DNA from: a virus
Virus record (IMG/VR): IMGVR_UViG_3300020213_000077
Coordinates: 1 to 33,573 of that record
Length of the DNA: 33,573 bases
Reading direction: 5' to 3' (one strand)
Part shown: piece by piece, positions 3,055-22,585 of the stretch
Position numbering within the stretch: position 1 is the first letter of the stretch
Layout of the letters: the number at the start of each line of letters is the position of its first letter
Made by a program: the position numbers and the translations under genes
Notes under the pieces: model-generated
Seen by the model: the letters and a program-made list of their open reading frames with translations, nothing else
Databases searched by the model: none
Told to the model about the DNA's origin: nothing

Positions 3055-3299
3055 GCCGCATGAACGGTCTCATCCTGCGGATGGAAGTGGAGGAGGAGGG
3101 GGCAGCCAAGCACCTGCGACTCAATTCGATAAACGCAGCGTGCGCGCGGTTTCGACTCAATTCGATAAACGCAGCGTGCGCGCGGTTTTTCGCGCGCCGC
3201 GGCATTCATCAGCCGACATTGCAACAGGCGATTGCGAAAAAATGCTCGCGGATGCGGGACAAAAAGCGCCGCAATCGCTCCCGCAATCACACTGCCTGA
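3051..3299 (+). CDS. Small basic protein with internal tandem duplication
   Basis: An 82-residue frame starts at GTG overlapping the previous TGA; ATG 3060 is an alternative. After an acidic start (LILRMEVEEEGAAKHL) it contains two identical copies of the 12-residue unit RLNSINAACARF, encoded by a perfect 36-bp tandem repeat. A basic C-terminus follows (KKCSRMRDKKRRNRSRN). The duplication is in frame and apparently recent. Function unknown; the basic tail could bind nucleic acid. Confidence 0.45.
   Translation: MSRMNGLILRMEVEEEGAAKHLRLNSINAACARFRLNSINAACARFFARRGIHQPTLQQAIAKKCSRMRDKKRRNRSRNHTA
3117..3188. repeat. Perfect 36-bp tandem duplication
   Basis: Two adjacent identical copies (3117-3152 and 3153-3188) each begin CGACTCAATTCGATAAACGC. 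With no spacer between them this is a tandem duplication rather than a CRISPR unit. It keeps the reading frame of the surrounding small gene. Confidence 0.9.
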
Positions 3300-5616: not shown

Positions 5617-5729
5617 GGCGAACTCCTGAGATGAGCCACGACCCCGCAGATTTCCAACTGGTGTCCGAACCCGCTGTCGCTCCCGAAAACGGACAGGCCG
5701 GGGTCGTTGGCTCTGGCGATTTGTTGGGC
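5617..5729. other. attC-like hairpin E
   Basis: GGCGAAC on the left and GTTGGGC on the right place AAC (5621-5623) and GTT (5723-5725) at mirror positions, each nine bases from a long stem. The stem pairs 5633-5646 (GAGCCACGACCCCG) with 5699-5713, leaving one unpaired T on the right arm. The layout matches hairpins A, B and C downstream, but the outer nine bases pair poorly. The upstream gene stops one base before the left box. Confidence 0.45.
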
Positions 5730-6374
5730 CGGGTGCTGGTGGCCTGCGAATACTCCGGCGCGGTGCGCGCTGCCTTCGCGGCTCTCGGATGGGATGCCTG
5801 GAGCTGTGACTTGCTGCCGAGCGAGAAGCCGGGCCAGCACTACGTCGGCGACGTGCGCGACATCTTGGGCGACGGGTGGGACGTAATGATAGCTCACCCC
5901 CCATGCACGCATCTTGCGGTGAGTGGCGCACGATGGTTCAAAGACAAGGTGCGCGAACAAGCCGAGGCTCTGGAATTTGTGCGACTGCTACTGGACGCGC
6001 CAATCGAACACATCGCGCTCGAAAATCCGGTCAGCGTCATCTCGTCGGAAATCCGAAAGCCCGACCAAATCATTCAGCCCTTCGAATATGGCGACCCCTT
6101 CCGTAAAACAACTTGCCTTTGGCTTAAAGGTCTGCCAAAGTTGAAGCCAACATGTATAATGCAAGAGCGAAAACAACAGTGCTGGCTGGAGCCTCCGGGA
6201 CCGGACAGATGGAAGCGAAGATCAAGAACATATCCGGGAATAGCGCGAGCGATGGCGCAGATGTGGTCAGATTTCGTAATTGGGATAAAGCAAAACCAAT
6301 CACACCAGGTGTCCGAAGTGGCCGACTTACCGTTGTTCGACTCTCTAAAAAACGGTCATCGGACCGCCAGATGA
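5631..6374 (+). CDS. Cytosine-5 DNA methyltransferase-like protein with exchanged C-terminus
   Basis: The 247-residue frame has a SAM-binding start (RVLVACEYSGAVRAAFAALG) and a PPC motif (IAHPPCTHLAVSGARWF, Cys about residue 92). It also has the ALENPVS and DPFRKTTCLWLKGLPKL segments typical of short phage cytosine methylases. These methylate DNA, often against restriction. The first 34 residues are encoded inside hairpin E and look non-native; TTG 5724 or GTG 5733 may be the true start. From about 6100 the DNA becomes more AT-rich and the C-terminus seems to have been replaced together with the HNH gene that follows, whose frame overlaps this one. Confidence 0.65.
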   Translation: MSHDPADFQLVSEPAVAPENGQAGVVGSGDLLGRVLVACEYSGAVRAAFAALGWDAWSCDLLPSEKPGQHYVGDVRDILGDGWDVMIAHPPCTHLAVSGARWFKDKVREQAEALEFVRLLLDAPIEHIALENPVSVISSEIRKPDQIIQPFEYGDPFRKTTCLWLKGLPKLKPTCIMQERKQQCWLEPPGPDRWKRRSRTYPGIARAMAQMWSDFVIGIKQNQSHQVSEVADLPLFDSLKNGHRTAR

Positions 6375-6988
6375 TGTATGACTGCATTTGTGACTGCGGC
6401 TCTGCGGCAACCGTGAGAGGGCAATTCTTGAGAAAGCAAATCACACTTTCTTGCGGTTGCTTACAGCGCGAGGCAACGGCTGATCGCAGTCTGGTTCACG
6501 GTCACTCTGTCGGCTATAAGCGGACGCGACTTTACCGAATCTGGACAAACATGATGAGTAGATGCACAAACCCAAATGTAAAATCCTGGGAGGATTACGG
6601 CGGGCGCGGGATTGTTGTTTGCAGGGCGTGGCAAAACTTCAAGACATTCATGTCTGATATGGGAGATCCACCAAGTGGACTGACCCTCGACCGCAAAAAC
6701 AACGACGGGAACTACGAGCCGGGGAACTGCCGGTGGTCAACATGGCAGGAACAAGCCGCAAATAGGAGAAAATCTTGTCGCGCTCGCATGCCTGTGGCTC
6801 AAGAATCTCCCGAAGCTCACGCCGACAAATATCGTCTCGGGCCGCGAGGCTCGCGTGCATCGGATGCCGCCCGGCCCCAACCGCTGGAAAGAACGCTCGC
6901 GCACACTTCCGGGGATCGCTCTTGCGTTCGCCGGCCAGTGGACGCGCGCCACACGGCCCAACGCAGAGGTCAGAGACGGCGGAGGTGA
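6263..6988 (+). CDS. HNH homing endonuclease inserted in the methyltransferase gene
   Basis: The frame contains the classic parts of phage HNH endonucleases: PGVRSGRLTVV, a Cys pair cluster (YDCICDCG then LSCGCL), RLYRIWTNMMSRCTNP, the DYGGRGIVVC segment, and the metal-finger end LDRKNNDGNYEPGNCRW followed by EQAANRRKS. Homologues usually stop near NRRKS; here the frame runs another 75 or so residues out of phase through the displaced methyltransferase end. The open frame begins at 6152; GTG 6263 fits the family's N-terminus, while ATG 6371 overlaps the methyltransferase stop and lacks the first strand. It probably cuts methyltransferase-gene DNA lacking the insertion. Confidence 0.75.
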   Translation: MVRFRNWDKAKPITPGVRSGRLTVVRLSKKRSSDRQMMYDCICDCGSAATVRGQFLRKQITLSCGCLQREATADRSLVHGHSVGYKRTRLYRIWTNMMSRCTNPNVKSWEDYGGRGIVVCRAWQNFKTFMSDMGDPPSGLTLDRKNNDGNYEPGNCRWSTWQEQAANRRKSCRARMPVAQESPEAHADKYRLGPRGSRASDAARPQPLERTLAHTSGDRSCVRRPVDARHTAQRRGQRRRR

Positions 6989-6995
6989 GGCGTGA
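6789..6995 (+). pseudogene. Displaced 3' end of the methyltransferase gene
   Basis: In the frame ending at TGA 6993-6995 the sequence reads CLWLKNLPKLTPTNI, then PPGPNRWKERSRTLPGIALAFAGQW. It aligns with CLWLKGLPKLKPTCI and PPGPDRWKRRSRTYPGIARAMAQMW at the end of the intact methyltransferase upstream. It has no start codon of its own. It looks like the original C-terminus, cut off when the HNH element and a replacement C-terminus came in. Its last residues (NAEVRDGGGEA) are encoded by hairpin A. Confidence 0.8.
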
Positions 6996-7041
6996 TCTCG
7001 CGTGAGGCGTTCCCGCCGTTCTCTGGACCGTCTTGTTCGCG
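6956..7041. other. attC-like hairpin A
   Basis: Left box GCCCAAC and right GTTCGCG flank a stepped stem. CGGCGG/CCGCCG pair, then one unpaired T (7019), CAGAGA/TCTCTG, one unpaired G (7026), GGT/ACC, one unpaired G (7030), AGA/TCT, and AAC/GTT at the ends. The apical loop is about 30 bases. The pseudogene stop lies inside. Hairpins B and C have the same order of 6-bp stems and extrahelical bases. This is the secondary structure by which integron attC sites are recognised. Confidence 0.65.
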
Positions 7042-7070
7042 CTCCATTTTCAGCCTCTCGAAAATAAATC
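6960..7070. repeat. Direct repeat, copy 1 (hairpin A plus CGAAAATAAATC)
   Basis: About 110 bp, closely similar to 7886-7994. It runs from the left AAC of hairpin A through the stem and on to CGAAAATAAATC (7059-7070). Both copies encode NAEVRDGGGEA-stop at the end of otherwise unrelated frames. Confidence 0.85.
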
Positions 7071-7086
7071 AAAATACTTTCGATTT

Positions 7087-7119
7087 ACGCTTGACGTTGC
7101 GCTACGTCGAGCGTAGTCT
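7087..7119 (+). promoter_or_regulatory. Sigma70-like promoter with overlapping palindromic operator
   Basis: TTGACG (7091-7096), 17 bases, TAGTCT (7114-7119). An imperfect palindrome ACGCTTGACGT-TGCGCT-ACGTCGAGCGT (one mismatch) covers the -35 box and most of the spacer; its core is GACGT-N6-ACGTC. The same core lies at the promoter at 9620. A repressor bound here would block polymerase. Confidence 0.7.
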
Positions 7120-7165
7120 GTAGGTAGATCGCAGCCCCAGTAAGGCCGCGACTAAACCAAAAAAA

Positions 7166-7462
7166 ATGAACACTACCGAAACGAAAACCGAAACCCCATT
7201 CCGCGGTGAGCACTACGGAGTTTTTTGCAGCGACGGAAACGGCTGGTATGTCGCGGGGGTTGACTCGAGTGGGACGCATCGCCAGCAGCGCGGCACAATG
7301 GAGATTGGGGAGGCAAATAAGCAGGCCCGCCAAATGGAGCAAACTTACACCGCCGCCCTCGCCCGAGGGCCGATCACCGATCAAGACGGCCGCACATGGA
7401 GTGCGGCAGAGATCGCCGATGAAGAAGTGAGCACGATGCCATTCGGCGACAACGAAGACTGA
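7166..7462 (+). CDS. Small acidic protein, module 1 first gene
   Basis: 98 residues, starting at an ATG after an A-rich leader with no Shine-Dalgarno sequence, about 75 bases downstream of the -35 box. The protein is polar and acidic (HYGVFCSDGNGWYVAGVDSSG, then EIADEEVSTMPFGDNED). It resembles in style, though not clearly in sequence, the first gene of the second module at 9693. The leaders of the two genes are homologous (TAGATCG onwards). Small acidic early phage proteins often target host enzymes, but no specific function can be named. Confidence 0.6.
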   Translation: MNTTETKTETPFRGEHYGVFCSDGNGWYVAGVDSSGTHRQQRGTMEIGEANKQARQMEQTYTAALARGPITDQDGRTWSAAEIADEEVSTMPFGDNED

Positions 7463-7626
7463 TGGACGCGAAAGAAATGCAAGCCCGCTCCGCCGAGAAA
7501 CGGTGGGGCGGGCTCACGCCCGAAGAGCGGTCCGAAAAAATGAGTGCGGTTCGAGCGAAGGGTCTAAAAAAGCGCCCGAAAAAGAAGGCGCGTTCCAAGA
7601 GCGCGAACGACCAAGATCAGGTATGA
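7462..7626 (+). CDS. Small basic protein, module 1 (paralogue of 9924 gene)
   Basis: 54 residues, coupled to the previous gene by a TGATG overlap. The core RWGGLTPEERSEKMSAVRAKGL is matched by RWEGMTPEQRSREMKRVRKKGL in the 54-residue protein at 9924-10088, and both end in a lysine/arginine-rich tail. The two are therefore paralogues with the same length and the same position as second gene of a module. The short helical core with a basic tail suggests nucleic-acid binding. Function unknown. Confidence 0.65.
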   Translation: MDAKEMQARSAEKRWGGLTPEERSEKMSAVRAKGLKKRPKKKARSKSANDQDQV

Positions 7627-7862
7627 CTCCCGCGCCGCTGACTCCAAATCCAGATGCCGCTCCACCGCGGGAGTCATTACCTGCATCGCCGGGTTCGGGG
7701 ATTCCTGCGCCCGACCCAACGCGCGAAGCGCCTGCCTTTGATGCCCGTGCGCTGCACCTCGAACTGTGCCGAGAATGGGGGCGCAAGAACATCGGACGCG
7801 AGCTGACGGCGGACGAAATCATCGCGGACTGGAATAGCCGCTCGCCGGAGGATCAATGGTGA
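7623..7862 (+). CDS. Small Pro-rich protein, unknown
   Basis: 79 residues from the ATG overlapping the previous stop. The first 38 residues are proline-rich and disordered (TPAPLTPNPDAAPP onwards). The rest is a small helical unit (DARALHLELCREWGRKNIGRELTADEIIADWNSRS) that could be a protein-interaction domain. It is the last full gene of module 1 and stops about 20 bases before hairpin B. Confidence 0.5.
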   Translation: MTPAPLTPNPDAAPPRESLPASPGSGIPAPDPTREAPAFDARALHLELCREWGRKNIGRELTADEIIADWNSRSPEDQW

Positions 7863-7881
7863 AAACAGAAGCGCAGGATTC

Positions 7882-7968
7882 CCCGAACGCCGAGGTCAGA
7901 GACGGCGGAGGTGAGGCGTGATCTCGCGAGAGGCGTTGCCCGCCGTTCTCTGCACCGTCTTGTTCTGG
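7882..7968. other. attC-like hairpin B
   Basis: Left CCCGAAC and right GTTCTGG. Stems in order from the loop: CGGCGG/CCGCCG, unpaired T (7946), CAGAGA/TCTCTG, unpaired C (7953), GGT/ACC, unpaired G (7957), GA/TC, then AAC/GTT. Same architecture as A with changed bases at the unpaired positions. A short frame (7856-7921) ends inside with NAEVRDGGGEA. Confidence 0.65.
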
Positions 7969-7994
7969 CCCGTTTCGACGCTCGAAAATAAATC
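7886..7994. repeat. Direct repeat, copy 2 (hairpin B plus CGAAAATAAATC)
   Basis: Second copy of the roughly 110-bp repeat at 6960-7070, again ending in CGAAAATAAATC (7983-7994). A candidate -35 box TTGCAT (8017) follows, 76 bases before the next start codon. That spacing is close to the two better promoters at 7091 and 9620, but no good -10 box is visible. Confidence 0.85.
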
Positions 7995-8092
7995 GTAAAA
8001 AAGCCGAAAATAGTTCTTGCATCCATCCGTAAAGAAGACGAGACTGCATGTGTCGAAGGAATTAACCGGAGACGCAAAAAGGAAATTCAAAA

Positions 8093-8308
8093 ATGAAAAT
8101 CGAAACCACCAACTACGTAGCCACGGGAAACGAAACCCCAGCCATGCGGAAAGCCCGCGAGAGAGAACAATACTGGGCTGAACAGCGCAACCAAGCGACC
8201 ACCGAAAACGAACTAAACCATGCTCGCAAAATGGAAATCAAGGCGGCACGGGCATGGTCCGCGGCCGAGGAGTCTCGCTGCGAAATAATCGCGGCACTGG
8301 ACCGCTGA
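8093..8308 (+). CDS. Small charged coiled-coil protein, unknown
   Basis: 71 residues, mostly one charged helix (AMRKAREREQYWAEQRNQATTENELNHARKMEIKAARAWSAAEES) that should form a coiled coil. It follows an A-rich leader with no Shine-Dalgarno sequence. First gene after hairpin B and its CGAAAATAAATC element. Function unknown. Confidence 0.55.
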   Translation: MKIETTNYVATGNETPAMRKAREREQYWAEQRNQATTENELNHARKMEIKAARAWSAAEESRCEIIAALDR

Positions 8309-8332
8309 ACCCAACCCCAAACAAACAACCAA

Positions 8333-8545
8333 ATGAAAATCCAAAACACCGCAGCAGCCGAATGGGCGAAAAAAGAAGTCGCCAACGACCCAGATGGGAA
8401 TCGCGAAAGCGACCTGGCCGAATTGGAGTCGGCATACGAGGCGATCTTCGGGGAGCGTTTCCCGGCCGAGTCGGGTCGCGAGGAAGATGCCGAACCTCGG
8501 GGATACTCGATGTGGTCAGACATCCGCTCGGCTCTGGACATCTGA
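8333..8545 (+). CDS. Small acidic protein, unknown
   Basis: 70 residues from an ATG behind an A/C-rich leader (CAAACAACCAA). Acidic and helical (AAAEWAKKEVANDPDGNRESDLAELESAYEAIFGERF), ending GYSMWSDIRSALDI. One base separates its stop from the HTH gene that follows. No family recognised. Confidence 0.5.
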   Translation: MKIQNTAAAEWAKKEVANDPDGNRESDLAELESAYEAIFGERFPAESGREEDAEPRGYSMWSDIRSALDI

Positions 8546-8546
8546 C

Positions 8547-8768
8547 ATGGATTTCGCCAAGCAACTCAAGTCGGCACGCCAGCGCCTCGGCCTAACACAG
8601 TCCGAGGCGGCTCTCGTGGTCGATATGTCCGCCGAATGGGTGAGCAAGTGCGAGCGCGGACTCACGATCCCGCCGGGGATCTCGCAAGAAGGGGCGCTGG
8701 AAAGGCTCCGCGCCGCCAAAAAGCGCGGAACTCGCAAGGGCCAGAACGACCAAGGTGACTCACGATGA
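8547..8768 (+). CDS. XRE-family HTH regulator
   Basis: 73 residues. Residues 1-55 read MDFAKQLKSARQRLGLTQSEAALVVDMSAEWVSKCERGLTIPP. This is the lambda Cro/CI-type helix-turn-helix: LGLTQ, then the positioning helix, then the recognition helix ending in ERG. A basic tail follows. It is a candidate for the repressor acting at the GACGT-N6-ACGTC operators on either side, but that link is inference. The stop overlaps the next ATG. Confidence 0.75.
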   Translation: MDFAKQLKSARQRLGLTQSEAALVVDMSAEWVSKCERGLTIPPGISQEGALERLRAAKKRGTRKGQNDQGDSR

Positions 8769-9142
8769 CCGCGCCTAAAACCGTCGCCAGCAAATTGGAC
8801 TCCAACGCGGTCATCGTTGAGTCCACCGCCTTGTTCGGCACGTCGTATTGGCGGGCGGACGGGTGGGAAGATATAGAGGCATCCGCGCAGACTGGGGATC
8901 GGATCGAGGGCGACTTCCCCGCTGGAAAAATCTGCGGAACGATCCGGGTCCGAAATGGAGTTTTCGAGCGCAAACCGATCCGGGCAGTCTATGTGCGAAA
9001 GGACGGAGCAAACTACGAATGGCCGCTGGAATACTTCGCGACCCTCGCCCGGACGGTGACTCGTCTGCTGAACGCCATGATGAGGAACGGTCAGGAGCCG
9101 TCCTCAGACTCACCCAACAAATCGGACGCTCACGGCTCCTGA
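8765..9142 (+). CDS. Unknown protein ending inside hairpin D
   Basis: 125 residues from the ATG overlapping the HTH stop. The body looks like a small beta-rich domain (VIVESTALFGTSYWRADGWEDIEAS, IRVRNGVFERKPIRAVYVRKDGANYEWPLEYFATLARTVTRLL). The last 22 residues (MRNGQEPSSDSPNKSDAHGS) are polar and encoded entirely by the hairpin, so the native domain probably ends near LLNAM. Function unknown. Confidence 0.5.
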   Translation: MTAPKTVASKLDSNAVIVESTALFGTSYWRADGWEDIEASAQTGDRIEGDFPAGKICGTIRVRNGVFERKPIRAVYVRKDGANYEWPLEYFATLARTVTRLLNAMMRNGQEPSSDSPNKSDAHGS

Positions 9143-9167
9143 CCGTTTGCTCCATCAAATGTTAGAC
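9067..9167. other. attC-like hairpin D (weaker)
   Basis: A perfect 16-bp stem pairs 9086-9101 (AACGGTCAGGAGCCGT) with 9132-9147. Outside it, AG/CT, GATG/CATC and AAC (9071)/GTT (9161) can pair with short bulges. The right end GTTAGAC is a standard core-site heptamer (GTTRRRY). The stop codon of the upstream gene lies in the right arm. The inner architecture differs from A-C. Confidence 0.4.
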
Positions 9168-9178
9168 CTCATTAAATT

Positions 9179-9415
9179 ATGGACCCTACACTGAAACCAA
9201 TAACAGAACCGAAACCAAGCACCGAAATCCGCGAGAAAATCCTAGCAATCCTAGACGGAAAATGTAGCGCATTCTGGAGCGATTTTTACCACGCGCTAAT
9301 CCCCCCGCACGGGGCTGAAGAAGTGGGGATCGCCCTCAACAGTCTCGTCGTGGATCGGACACTCCGAATGAAGGAAGACGAATCGGAGCATGACTGGGAA
9401 TACCGCCGGGTCTAA
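9179..9415 (+). CDS. Single-gene cassette protein, unknown
   Basis: 78 residues. It starts 12 bases after GTTAGAC, and its TAA stop lies inside GTCTAAC, the left box of hairpin C. The two boxes are perfectly complementary, which is the textbook relation for the ends of one gene cassette. The protein (IREKILAILDGKCSAFWSDFYHALIPPHGAEEVGIALNSLVVDRTLRM) reads like a small winged-helix fold, in which EEVGIALNSLVVDRTLR would be recognition helix and wing. Function unknown. Confidence 0.6.
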   Translation: MDPTLKPITEPKPSTEIREKILAILDGKCSAFWSDFYHALIPPHGAEEVGIALNSLVVDRTLRMKEDESEHDWEYRRV

Positions 9416-9535
9416 CGCAGCCTTCAGCGATGGCTTTGGAGGCCGCGCGTGAATCGTAGGACCGAGCTGTCGCGCGTCTGCGGAGCGCCGCGCGAAGAGC
9501 GGCGCGAAGCCATTCGCTGCAAGGCTTTGTTCGGC
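9410..9535. other. attC-like hairpin C (best example)
   Basis: Left GTCTAAC and right GTTCGGC. Stems: TGGCTT/AAGCCA, unpaired T (9513), CAGCGA/TCGCTG, unpaired C (9520), AGCCTT/AAGGCT, two-base spacer, AAC/GTT. Every pair in the three 6-bp stems is Watson-Crick. The long apical part contains more GC-rich pairing (CGCCGCGCG-like). The stop of the 9179 gene lies in the left box. Confidence 0.7.
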
Positions 9536-9619
9536 GCCGCGAATTTACTTGCCGCGCCCTTCGTAGAATTGGAGCGGGGGGCAGGTGCGGAGCATCCGAA
9601 AATAAATCAAACAATCTCG

Positions 9620-9648
9620 TTGACGTGCGCGCACGTCGGGCATATTGT
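9620..9648 (+). promoter_or_regulatory. Sigma70-like promoter with perfect palindromic operator
   Basis: TTGACG (9620-9625), 17 bases, TATTGT (9643-9648). A perfect 16-bp palindrome GACGTGCGCGCACGTC (9622-9637) overlaps the -35 box and spacer. CGAAAATAAATC (9597-9608) lies just upstream and could act as an UP-like element. The leader downstream (9654-9692) is homologous to that at 7125-7165. Confidence 0.75.
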
Positions 9649-9692: not shown

Positions 9693-9923
9693 ATGAGCAC
9701 CAAAATCGAAGAGATCATCGAAGCGAAAAACGAAGCCGGCAAACGCGCCTACCTCTGGCTGCACGACTCTGGCGACTGCATCCTCTGGCCGGACGAAAAA
9801 TCGAGCGTGAACGACAACGGGGCGAACGCAATCGAGCGGTGGCAACTGACGAAAGAGGAAGTCCAGGAACTGGAGGACGCCGATACCGACTCCCCGCGCG
9901 GGCTCATCGACGATCGTGGCTAA
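9693..9923 (+). CDS. Small acidic protein, module 2 first gene
   Basis: 76 residues, acidic (TKIEEIIEAKNEAGKRAYLWLHDSGDCILWPDEKSS, later LTKEEVQELEDADTDSPRGLIDD). It follows a 5' leader homologous to that of the 7166 gene and is transcribed from the TTGACG/TATTGT promoter. The stop abuts the next ATG. Like its counterpart in module 1 it is small and acidic, but no function can be assigned. Confidence 0.6.
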   Translation: MSTKIEEIIEAKNEAGKRAYLWLHDSGDCILWPDEKSSVNDNGANAIERWQLTKEEVQELEDADTDSPRGLIDDRG

Positions 9924-20083: not shown

Positions 20084-20115
20084 CCCGCCGCCGAACGGCT
20101 GAGACCGGCGGCGGG
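20084..20115. terminator. GC hairpin after the capsid gene
   Basis: Perfect 10-bp stem CCCGCCGCCG/CGGCGGCGGG over a 12-base loop, 21 bases after the coat stop. No long U-run follows, so it may attenuate or protect the mRNA end rather than stop transcription fully. Confidence 0.55.
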
Positions 20116-20139
20116 TTCCAAATCAATTCGGTTCGATAA

Positions 20140-20175
20140 GACCCGGTGTGCGGACTCAGCCCCGCCCGCCGGGTC
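20140..20175. terminator. Second hairpin with short T-rich tail
   Basis: GACCCGG pairs with CCGGGTC over a 22-base loop and is followed by GATTGTTTATT. A weak terminator candidate just before the glycosyltransferase gene. Confidence 0.4.
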
Positions 20176-20191
20176 GATTGTTTATTCCCCC

Positions 20192-22561
20192 ATGAAAATA
20201 ACTCTTTGCGCCATTGCCGGTCAACGATCCGAGTGCATCGCACAAATGCTAGAATCTTTTCGTCCGCTCTATGACGATGCTGTCGTGGTGATGGCGCTCG
20301 GCTCCAATGAGGACGACGGCACGGCAGTGATCGCCGCGAATTGGGGCGCGACCGTCAGCCGTTACGAAAATCAGATCCACCCTGAATGGGATGGTGTGGA
20401 TGACTTTGCCGCCGCGCGAAATCGCGCCTGGCAAATTGGCGCTGACTGCGGAGCCGACTGGCTGCTGTGGGCGGATACTGACGACGTGATCACGCCCGAG
20501 GCGTGTGCGCTTCTGCGCGAGGCGTGCGTGCAGGCCATGGAGCAAGACATGGACATCGTCGCATGCAACTACGCCGTTCCGCAAGAAGGAGTAAAACTCA
20601 TGCGCGAGCGACTCGCCCGCCCCGGCCGAGCCCGGTGGATGTCCCGCATCCACGAGCATCTCGGCCCCATGACCGACGAGCAGGTGCTCAAGGTCTGCGA
20701 GGTGCCGAACGCCGAGGTGATCCACTCCCCCGCCGCGCAGAAGAGCGGGAGCCTTGAGCGGAACCTTCGCATCTTGGAGGACATTCCCGCGCGCGATCGC
20801 ACCGCATCGCACCACTTTCATATGTTCAACAGCCTCTTGGCCGCCGGTCGCACCGACGAGATGATGATGGCAGGCATGCAATTCTTGCAAGCGCCTTCGA
20901 TGGGCCAGGCCGAGCGATATGAGGTGCTAATGCAAATGGGGCTTGCCTCCACCGACATCGAGGTAAGTCTTAAGTTCGCCCTGTCCGCCTATGCCGAGGA
21001 TCCGGCACGGCGAGAGGCACTCGGCGAGTTGTCGCACATGTCCATTCGCCGCGGAGACTGTGCTGCCGCACTGGCGTACTCAACCGCCATGATGTCGCTC
21101 CCCGATCCGCCGCAGGCACCTTGGGCGCTGCGCCGCTCGTTTTGGGGTGTGCAGGGTCTGCACATCCACACGAGGGCATTGAGACTTAACGGAAGACCCG
21201 AAGAGGCGGAGGCCAGGGAGTACAATCATTTCCGCGCCCACGGCGGCGGAATATCGCTGTTGCACGCGACTCGCTGCCGCCCCGCCATGGCGCTGAACGC
21301 GCGGCGGCTGTGGTATGCGCGCGCCGAGAATCCCGACGCAGTGGAGCACATATTCGCGGTCGATGCGGATGACGATGAGTCCGCCGCTCTCCGCGGCTGG
21401 CGCCACGTAGTCGTGCAGCCCGGTGGCGGCTGCGTGCGCGCGTGGAACAGTGCAGCCGGGGCGAGCGAAGGAAATGTTCTCGTGCAGATGTCCGATGATT
21501 TCGAGCCGCCGATGGGCTGGGATCGAAAGATATTGGATCGATTGGAACCCGCCTTGGCCGCCGATGGAGAGGCGGTGCTCCATGTTTCAGACGGGCATCG
21601 CACGGACGATCTCATGTGCATCGCGATCCTCACCCGCAAGCGCTGGGCGCGACAGGGATATCTATTTCACCCCCAGTTTTTGTCCATGCACTCCGATGCT
21701 TGGTTTTCGGCCGCCGCCTATCGGGATGGAGTGGTTATCCCAGCCCCCGATCTGGTGTTTCATCACCGGCATCCGTTTTTTTGCGGCGCGCCCGGATGGG
21801 ATTCGACTTACGCCGAGAGCAACTCTCCCGAGCGATATAATGAGGGAGCCGCCGTATTTGATCGCCTCCGCCGCGGTGTGCCGACGAGCCACGAGATCAT
21901 TGGGTACTGCGATTTTGCGGACTATTATTCGGCAGTCGCGGATCGGCTGCAAGACGGCGACATTTTCGTGGAGGTCGGAAGCTTTTTGGGCCAGAGCATC
22001 ATTCATCTTGCCCAGACATTGCAGGACCGCGGCAAGCACGGCGTGCGGCTGGTGTGCGTGGACACGTTTCTGGGCGAGCCCGGGCAACCCGAGCACAGTG
22101 AGATCGTCGCGCAGAGCGGCGGCAGCATCCGCGAGGCATTCGCGGCAAACATTCTCCGCGCCGAGGTCGCCTGCATGATCGAGATACGCGAAGCGGACAG
22201 CGCGGCGTCCGCAGCCGCCTTCGCCGATGCGGGCGTGGCAGGCGTGTTCATTGACGCCGCGCACGATTACACGAGCGTCGCGCGGGACATCGCCGCCTGG
22301 TCGCCGAAAGTCCGGCCCGGCGGTTTCCTCGCTGGCCACGACTACCCGTGGCACGAGGTGGCACGCGCCGTCACGGAACACGCCATCGCCCGCGGTGTGC
22401 GGGTGAGGCAGATAGGCAGGGTTTGGGAGACGTGCGATAAGTCTGCGAATATTTTGTCGAACGTCCGCATCAGCGACTGCAAACCGGAGGAGCGACCATC
22501 GGATTCGCCGAACGAAAAGATCAGCTACAGCGAAGGCGAGTCTGCGAGCTGGAGCGGTTAG
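20192..22561 (+). CDS. Glycosyltransferase/SAM-methyltransferase fusion protein
   Basis: 789 residues with three parts. Residues 1-120 are a GT2-like fold (MKITLCAIAGQRSECIAQML, DDFAAARNRAWQIG, DxD-type WADTDD at about 93-98). Residues about 360-560 look like a second GT-A unit (HIFAVDADDDES, LVQMSDDFEPPMGW). Residues about 585-745 are a class I methyltransferase (DIFVEVGSFLGQSI, FIDAAHDYTSVARDIAAW, GGFLAGHDYPW). It would build and methylate a sugar, perhaps on the virion, since it lies directly after the coat gene. The last 30 residues look unrelated and may be read-through of another gene's frame. Confidence 0.75.
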   Translation: MKITLCAIAGQRSECIAQMLESFRPLYDDAVVVMALGSNEDDGTAVIAANWGATVSRYENQIHPEWDGVDDFAAARNRAWQIGADCGADWLLWADTDDVITPEACALLREACVQAMEQDMDIVACNYAVPQEGVKLMRERLARPGRARWMSRIHEHLGPMTDEQVLKVCEVPNAEVIHSPAAQKSGSLERNLRILEDIPARDRTASHHFHMFNSLLAAGRTDEMMMAGMQFLQAPSMGQAERYEVLMQMGLASTDIEVSLKFALSAYAEDPARREALGELSHMSIRRGDCAAALAYSTAMMSLPDPPQAPWALRRSFWGVQGLHIHTRALRLNGRPEEAEAREYNHFRAHGGGISLLHATRCRPAMALNARRLWYARAENPDAVEHIFAVDADDDESAALRGWRHVVVQPGGGCVRAWNSAAGASEGNVLVQMSDDFEPPMGWDRKILDRLEPALAADGEAVLHVSDGHRTDDLMCIAILTRKRWARQGYLFHPQFLSMHSDAWFSAAAYRDGVVIPAPDLVFHHRHPFFCGAPGWDSTYAESNSPERYNEGAAVFDRLRRGVPTSHEIIGYCDFADYYSAVADRLQDGDIFVEVGSFLGQSIIHLAQTLQDRGKHGVRLVCVDTFLGEPGQPEHSEIVAQSGGSIREAFAANILRAEVACMIEIREADSAASAAAFADAGVAGVFIDAAHDYTSVARDIAAWSPKVRPGGFLAGHDYPWHEVARAVTEHAIARGVRVRQIGRVWETCDKSANILSNVRISDCKPEERPSDSPNEKISYSEGESASWSG

Positions 22562-22573
22562 CCGTGGCGCTTG

Positions 22574-22585
22574 GTTAGGACTCTT
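22574..22585. repeat. Left arm of a 12-bp inverted repeat flanking the regulator gene
   Basis: GTTAGGACTCTT, exact reverse complement of 23167-23178. It ends two bases before the ATG of the regulator. Confidence 0.8.

Follow-up and report, generated by a model that had tools for sequence, protein, structure and literature searches.

Do the hairpins between the small genes of a phage genome make up an integron-type cassette array, and what does it mean that these genes run against them? Integrons are known mainly as bacterial platforms, in which cassettes can be expressed from the promoter Pc only if they are co-directional with their attC recombination sites. In the standard view, bottom-strand selectivity yields the orientation that is required for this expression (PMC11023631). 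The window considered here is the complete IMG/VR virus record IMGVR_UViG_3300020213_000077 (33,573 bases), in which tailed-phage genes for an endolysin, a primase, a primase/polymerase-like protein, a terminase, a portal, a major head protein, and a tape-measure protein were matched. The terminase has its best match, at only 33%, in Akkermansia phage Moulinsart, which is a weak hint of a Verrucomicrobiota host. Positions 6956–9535, with the endolysin side on one flank and the primase gene on the other, are best read as an integron-type cassette array without an integrase, i.e., a cluster of attC sites lacking integron integrases (CALIN), with inverted genes and as part of a wider phage-adapted integron form; a probability of about 0.87 is assigned to this reading. 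An integrase-less, CALIN-like array in a phage had been proposed in a first-pass annotation of the bare letters, and the matches of a bacterial attC model together with the lack of an integron integrase (IntI) in the record uphold it. That the genes are opposite to the attC sites, and that many phages with such an arrangement encode their own IntI, had gone unnoticed.

attC sites between the phage genes

Hairpins A, B, and C (Table 1) are located precisely as first annotated and have the features described there: AAC/GTT ends, paired arms, and a pair of extrahelical bases separated by about 6 bp. A scanner for this architecture (AAC, spacer, 3–5 bp, extrahelical base, 5–6 bp, extrahelical base, 6-bp stem, GTT) returned eight candidates in the window, six of which score at least 14. 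Dinucleotide-shuffled windows gave 0.05 candidates each (0.01 at ≥14), and 490 kb of other phage DNA gave six, none of them at ≥14. Both the scanner and the degenerate pattern used below are biased to one sequence family of attC.

A covariance model (R1) derived solely from 34 attC sites, taken from class 1 integrons and from bacterial integrons adjoining IntI, gives exactly five significant matches in the whole window, at full length, always on the minus strand, and within 6956–9535 (E-values, rough in such home-built models, of 1e-8 to 4e-7). No match was found by R1 in 468 kb of other phage DNA. Three of the five matches are A, B, and C, the outcome hoped for when a covariance-model check was suggested; the other two are full-strength sites that had been overlooked (7602–7699, 37.8 bits; 8741–8839, 39.1 bits). 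Default filters recovered sites, C among them, that were truncated or lost with filters off. A second model, built from 38 phage sites with the window excluded (R2), finds 107 sites in IntI-bearing bacterial loci, class 1 integrons included, and gives the same strand as R1 for the window sites. Phage CALINs have been described in TJE1, P12002L, PH101, and other virulent phages without intI, and IntI1 recombined the attC sites of those phages with attI1 (Qi et al. 2023, PMC9892861). R1 also finds sites in TJE1 and PH101. Since the bacterial and the phage model each recognize the other’s sites, including those of published phages, A, B, and C are confirmed as attC, and on sequence grounds all five matched sites are attC recombination sites. 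The evidence for this is architecture and homology and not stability, because plain single-strand DNA folding, which had been suggested as a further check, found A and B no more stable than expected (z near 0).

The two remaining hairpins of the first-pass annotation fared less well. D, named there as a looser site, has the architecture but little backing from the models, and E is at the scanner floor and is not supported by the covariance models.

A CALIN is marked by at least two nearby attC sites in the same orientation, by attC architecture, and by the lack of a nearby integron integrase. Within 2.6 kb, the window has five such sites, each of them on the minus strand, and their R″/R′ boxes, unpaired spacer, paired arms, and extrahelical bases are seen both by the scanner and in the full-length model alignments. 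A TIGR02249 search of the 33.6-kb record, which may be incomplete, found no integron integrase. As none is encoded there, the array is a phage-borne CALIN and not a complete integron, which would have intI and attI next to the array; intI does stand beside inverted arrays in other viral contigs.

The hairpins might instead be RNA elements of the sense transcript, such as terminators or processing or stability hairpins, that are attC-like in shape only. Their position between co-directional genes would suit such a role, as would their folding on the coding strand and an occasional overlap with a stop codon; at site C, the preceding gene stops inside the GTCTAAC box (R′). Terminators, however, need neither conserved AAC/GTT ends nor extrahelical bases, and the reciprocal recognition by models trained on bacterial and on phage sites argues against RNA elements. 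An Rfam search found no family, and the 38 phage sites, picked by a scanner that favors Watson-Crick pairs, show no one-sided (G-U type) stem changes. With similarity breakpoints at R′ ends and many similar arrays adjoining an IntI gene (both described below), RNA elements are the least credible of the alternatives and very unlikely.

Polarity of genes and attC sites

attC orientation was read from the arm that holds the extrahelical bases, which in class 1 attC sites is the R″ arm. In control plasmid integrons, attC and cassette genes are co-directional under this rule. In the window the extrahelical bases are on the 3′ arm of the plus strand, so the attC sites point left (minus) and the genes right (plus). 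At site A the R′ box, which is the cut end, is accordingly at the left (GCCCAAC on the plus strand, GTTGGGC on the minus strand). The homology-supported genes (methyltransferase, HNH, and HTH) are all on the plus strand. The layout is thus not that of a standard cassette array, whose genes are co-directional with attC, but that of an inverted-cassette group with R2-recognized attC sites and opposite genes. A phage-type IntI in the same genome also marks this group and is not found here, so that the window would be an integrase-less member.

Searching IMG/VR with the degenerate attC pattern yielded about 40 contigs that carry attC candidates, up to 14 of them in one array, and terminase matches were obtained for 15 of the 33 array records tested. 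Polarity was counted for genes between adjacent sites in 27 de-duplicated viral contigs and 22 bacterial integron loci. The viral arrays, taken from metagenomic contigs that are partly fragments, hold 69 genes opposite to attC vs 9 in the same direction, and 22 of the 27 contigs are mostly opposite. In the bacterial loci the numbers are reversed (4 opposite, 88 same), with 21 of 22 loci being canonical. Integrons from the phylum of a Lentisphaerae genome (see below) are part of the bacterial set. Opposed genes are the usual case in phage arrays and the exception in bacterial ones. Among published phages, PH101 is inverted (annotated genes on the minus strand, model matches on the plus strand) and TJE1 is canonical. 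In the first polarity scan, the genes of one Gallionella integron locus from GTDB (L162, 5452–9586) were scored as opposite to attC.

If attC orientation or gene strands had been misread, the inversion would be an artefact and the array an ordinary canonical CALIN. Orientation is indeed deduced from the arm that carries the extrahelical bases, most gene strands come from composition, and a few shared segments end at R″. The same rule, however, returns canonical polarity in class 1 integrons and in nearly all bacterial loci, both covariance models agree on the strand, and the annotated genes of PH101 are opposite to its sites. Protein families confirm the gene strands in the window and elsewhere (GNAT and C5 methylase in L075, Mom in L198, N6/N4 methylases in L224 and L218, MT-A70 in L165). 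As 11 of 12 similarity breakpoints also fall at the R′ called by the rule, a misreading is very unlikely.

The array could also be a dead remnant that the phage acquired from the chromosomal integron of a bacterium, with no exchange at present. No IntI is present in the record, D and E look degenerate, and donors exist: of 388 genomes sampled in the phylum of a Lentisphaerae genome (taken as GTDB Verrucomicrobiota), 109 carry IntI. Most arrays in these genomes are canonical, however, and because donor-phylum integrons have genes co-directional with attC, simple capture does not yield inverted polarity. Near-perfect structure is kept at five sites, and the closest copies of the A/B hairpin are in other viral contigs. 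These near-copies (91–94% identity) stand beside different genes in the unrelated contigs L006/L040 and L029, the L006 hairpin being 94% identical to site A, so the hairpins do recur next to other genes, which the annotation had proposed to look for in related phages. A search of the genome collection for the exact gapped A/B pattern gave no match. A dead remnant is regarded as unlikely, even if less so than the other alternatives.

Phage integrases and cassette exchange

IntI was found in 5 of the 32 first array records. An IMG/VR search with two phage IntIs gave 51 contigs and a search with two more gave 3, some of them duplicates, which amounts to about 50 contigs with a phage IntI. The aligned phage IntIs retain the catalytic residues and the IntI-specific LP..L..KYP...W motif, and 11 of 31 tested IntI records have a terminase or portal match. 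With intI drawn rightward, the arrays are almost always on its 5′ side, with attC sites pointing away from intI and genes toward it. Next to phage IntIs, 64 genes are opposite to attC vs 6 in the same direction (near-identical contigs included). Because the viral contigs L340 and L350 carry IntI and canonical cassettes, both polarity forms occur among phages. In a quick tree of 102 IntI sequences without an outgroup, 25 phage IntIs form a fully supported phage-only group, and the others are scattered, some on long branches; the long-branch groups were excluded from any single-origin argument.

Neither of the outcomes that the first-pass annotation had named as refuting, a lack of covariance-model matches or hairpins kept as fixed RNA or terminator structures, came about; other such phages gain and lose cassettes at the cut points. 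Phages L171 and L212 are 99.7% identical; one difference is a 2.78-kb insertion bounded by GAAC on either side, another a junction that falls at the AAC of an attC. In L242 and L241, a shared segment of 91% identity in a backbone of 75–79% ends at the GTT of an attC. Across all viral array loci, similarity ends within 10 bp of a site end in 12 of 108 cases, with about 1 expected; several of the 12 are reciprocal or duplicate, which leaves about 7 independent junctions. The position of 11 of the 12 at the rule-defined R′, the end cut by IntI, supports the orientation calls.

A rule by which every junction is an R′ cut was dropped, as L172/L190 and L184/L199 share a gene with differing hairpins on both sides. 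In L184 (4328–4921)/L199 and L172 (3215–3366)/L190, gene and attC seem to be exchanged separately. The homologous genes of L241 (7585–7672) and L242 (4467–4557) end at attC sites in different places, and the L241 attC lies inside the gene as found in L242, perhaps as a trace of cassette formation or of attC insertion.

In the proposed mechanism, IntI would be supplied in trans by the host or by a co-infecting phage and would bind the hairpin folded from the coding (plus) strand. Recombination would take place at the R′ box at the left end (AA/C on the plus strand, i.e., G/TT on the minus strand), by which units may be inserted, excised, and swapped. Own promoters or phage read-through could replace Pc and make the inverted polarity workable. 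The array would belong to a wider phage-adapted form whose members often encode IntI beside inverted arrays, and the cargo, mostly DNA-modification genes, is probably used against host restriction.

Several observations weigh against an inverted, phage-adapted array in addition to the composition-based strands, with which homology agrees wherever it is present. A minority of viral arrays is canonical or mixed (L187, L204, L205, L226, L340, L350, and TJE1), some shared segments end at R″ instead of R′ (L172/L190, L184/L199), and D and E are weak. Exchange is seen only in other phages, no close relative of the window phage being present in the collections searched, where a terminase search returned one distant locus (28%).

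Going further, it is slightly favored that phages own an integron lineage, with a largely phage-only IntI clade, a separate pool of inverted-gene cassettes that perhaps has its own promoter module, and a cargo that is largely DNA modification. The window would then be an integrase-less member that relies on the IntI of a partner.

Cassette contents and relation to known integrons

One to three small genes lie between neighboring attC sites (Table 1). Within a unit, attC comes first and the gene or genes last, with a promoter-like module in between in the units of A, B, and C. The module consists of GAAAATAAAT followed by a TTGAC or TTGCA box, and a −10-like box at 17 bp is found after A and C. 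This module recurs after sites in L006, L198, and L224, and only on the side where the gene lies; at most other sites the gene comes directly after attC. If active, such promoters would free the units from dependence on Pc. In the module after A, the −35 and −10 boxes enclose the palindrome TTGACGTTGCGCTACGTCGA (7091–7110), which looks like an operator and is nearly identical in L006. The second open reading frame (ORF) of unit A also resembles an L006 ORF (38-bp DNA match, 89%).

Table 1. Features of the array region and its left flank in the window.
Feature	Position	Strand	Evidence
DNA methyltransferase gene, left of site A	5631–6374	+	phrog_757, E 1e-71; start codon uncertain
E, unconfirmed, possibly degenerate	5617–5729	−	scanner 12.3 (floor); R2 8.5 bits, E 4.5, filters off
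attC site A	6956–7041	−	R1 40.1 bits, E 1e-7; R2 60.1 bits
Promoter-like module after A: GAAAATAAAT, TTGACG at 7091, 17 bp, TAGTCT at 7114	7060–7119	+	sequence, recurrence
Unit A cassette genes (ORFs 7166–7462 and 7462–7626)	7166–7626	+	ORFs, composition
attC site, newly added	7602–7699	−	R1 37.8 bits, E 4e-7; scanner 15
Unit 7602 ORF, start inside attC	7623–7862	+	sequence; no family found
attC site B	7882–7968	−	R1 44.1 bits, E 1e-8; R2 63.3 bits
Promoter-like module after B: GAAAATAAAT and TTGCAT	7984–8022	+	sequence, recurrence
Unit B cassette genes (ORFs 8093–8308 and 8333–8545, HTH gene 8547–8768)	8093–8768	+	ORFs, composition; HTH_31, E 2.5e-9
attC site, newly added	8741–8839	−	R1 39.1 bits, E 2e-7; R2 41.3 bits
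Unit 8741 cassette gene, start in attC 8741, end in D	8765–9142	+	ORFs, composition
Candidate attC D, right end a perfect GTTAGAC box	9067–9167	−	scanner 14; weak partial R2 match, E 0.55; no R1 match
Cassette gene between D and C, stop in R′ box of C	9179–9415	+	sequence, ORFs, composition
attC site C	9410–9535	−	R1 43.8 bits, E 1e-8; R2 50.1 bits
Promoter-like module after C: GAAAATAAAT, TTGACG at 9620, 17 bp, TATTGT at 9643	9598–9648	+	sequence, recurrence
First gene after C	9693–9923	+	ORFs, composition

Most cassette genes are without a known family. DNA methyltransferases dominate the identified cargo of the arrays, which also includes Mom, a PAPS reductase-like protein, and HNH endonucleases. 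Because this cargo consists mostly of DNA-modification genes, it suggests a role in protection from host restriction.

To the left of site A, the DNA methyltransferase gene (5631–6988) is apparently interrupted by an HNH endonuclease gene. A second, similar methyltransferase C-terminal end (LWLKNLPKLTPTN...) is present at about 6780–6988, as if the insertion had supplied a replacement C-terminus. A glycosyltransferase-methyltransferase fusion of 789 amino acids is encoded immediately after the major head gene, between two weak attC-like sites that are both unproven candidates (20094–20182, scanner 12.3, no model match; 22507–22580, R2 E 0.002, R1 E 0.6), and is possibly a further cassette within the structural cluster. 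Elsewhere in the window, a perfect tandem direct repeat of 36 bp × 2 (3117–3188) and an imperfect palindrome of 38 bp (2080–2117) are found.

If such a phage form, with inverted cassettes, integrases of its own, and DNA-modification cargo, is widespread, phages would employ the integron machinery to their own ends, plausibly to vary their counter-restriction genes, and there would be a cassette pool apart from the bacterial one. It then becomes testable why polarity differs, where cassettes originate, and whether units pass between phage and host integrons.

That phage genomes carry CALINs has been reported before (Qi et al. 2023, PMC9892861); what appears to be new is that the genes of phage arrays are opposite to the attC sites. 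In the open-access literature, neither inverted cassette polarity nor an IntI clade specific to phages was found described, most subscription papers and preprints lying outside the scope of the search. The published phage CALINs resemble the window in their attC clusters without intI, methyltransferase cassettes, and standard attC structure. The study that described them differs from the present analysis in that it screened the genomes of isolated phages, and opposite genes or a phage IntI clade are not discussed in the accessible part of its text. Sedentary chromosomal and class 1 integrons share with the window the attC architecture, the IntI cut position, and the cassette array. Their genes, however, follow attC and are mostly expressed from Pc, whereas the genes of the array described here are inverted and promoter-like modules of its own occur. 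The reverse integrons of Spirochaetota likewise depart from the standard integron layout (PMC9668308). In these the integrase is reported to be reversed, whereas in the phage form the relation of attC to intI is standard and the cassette genes are inverted.

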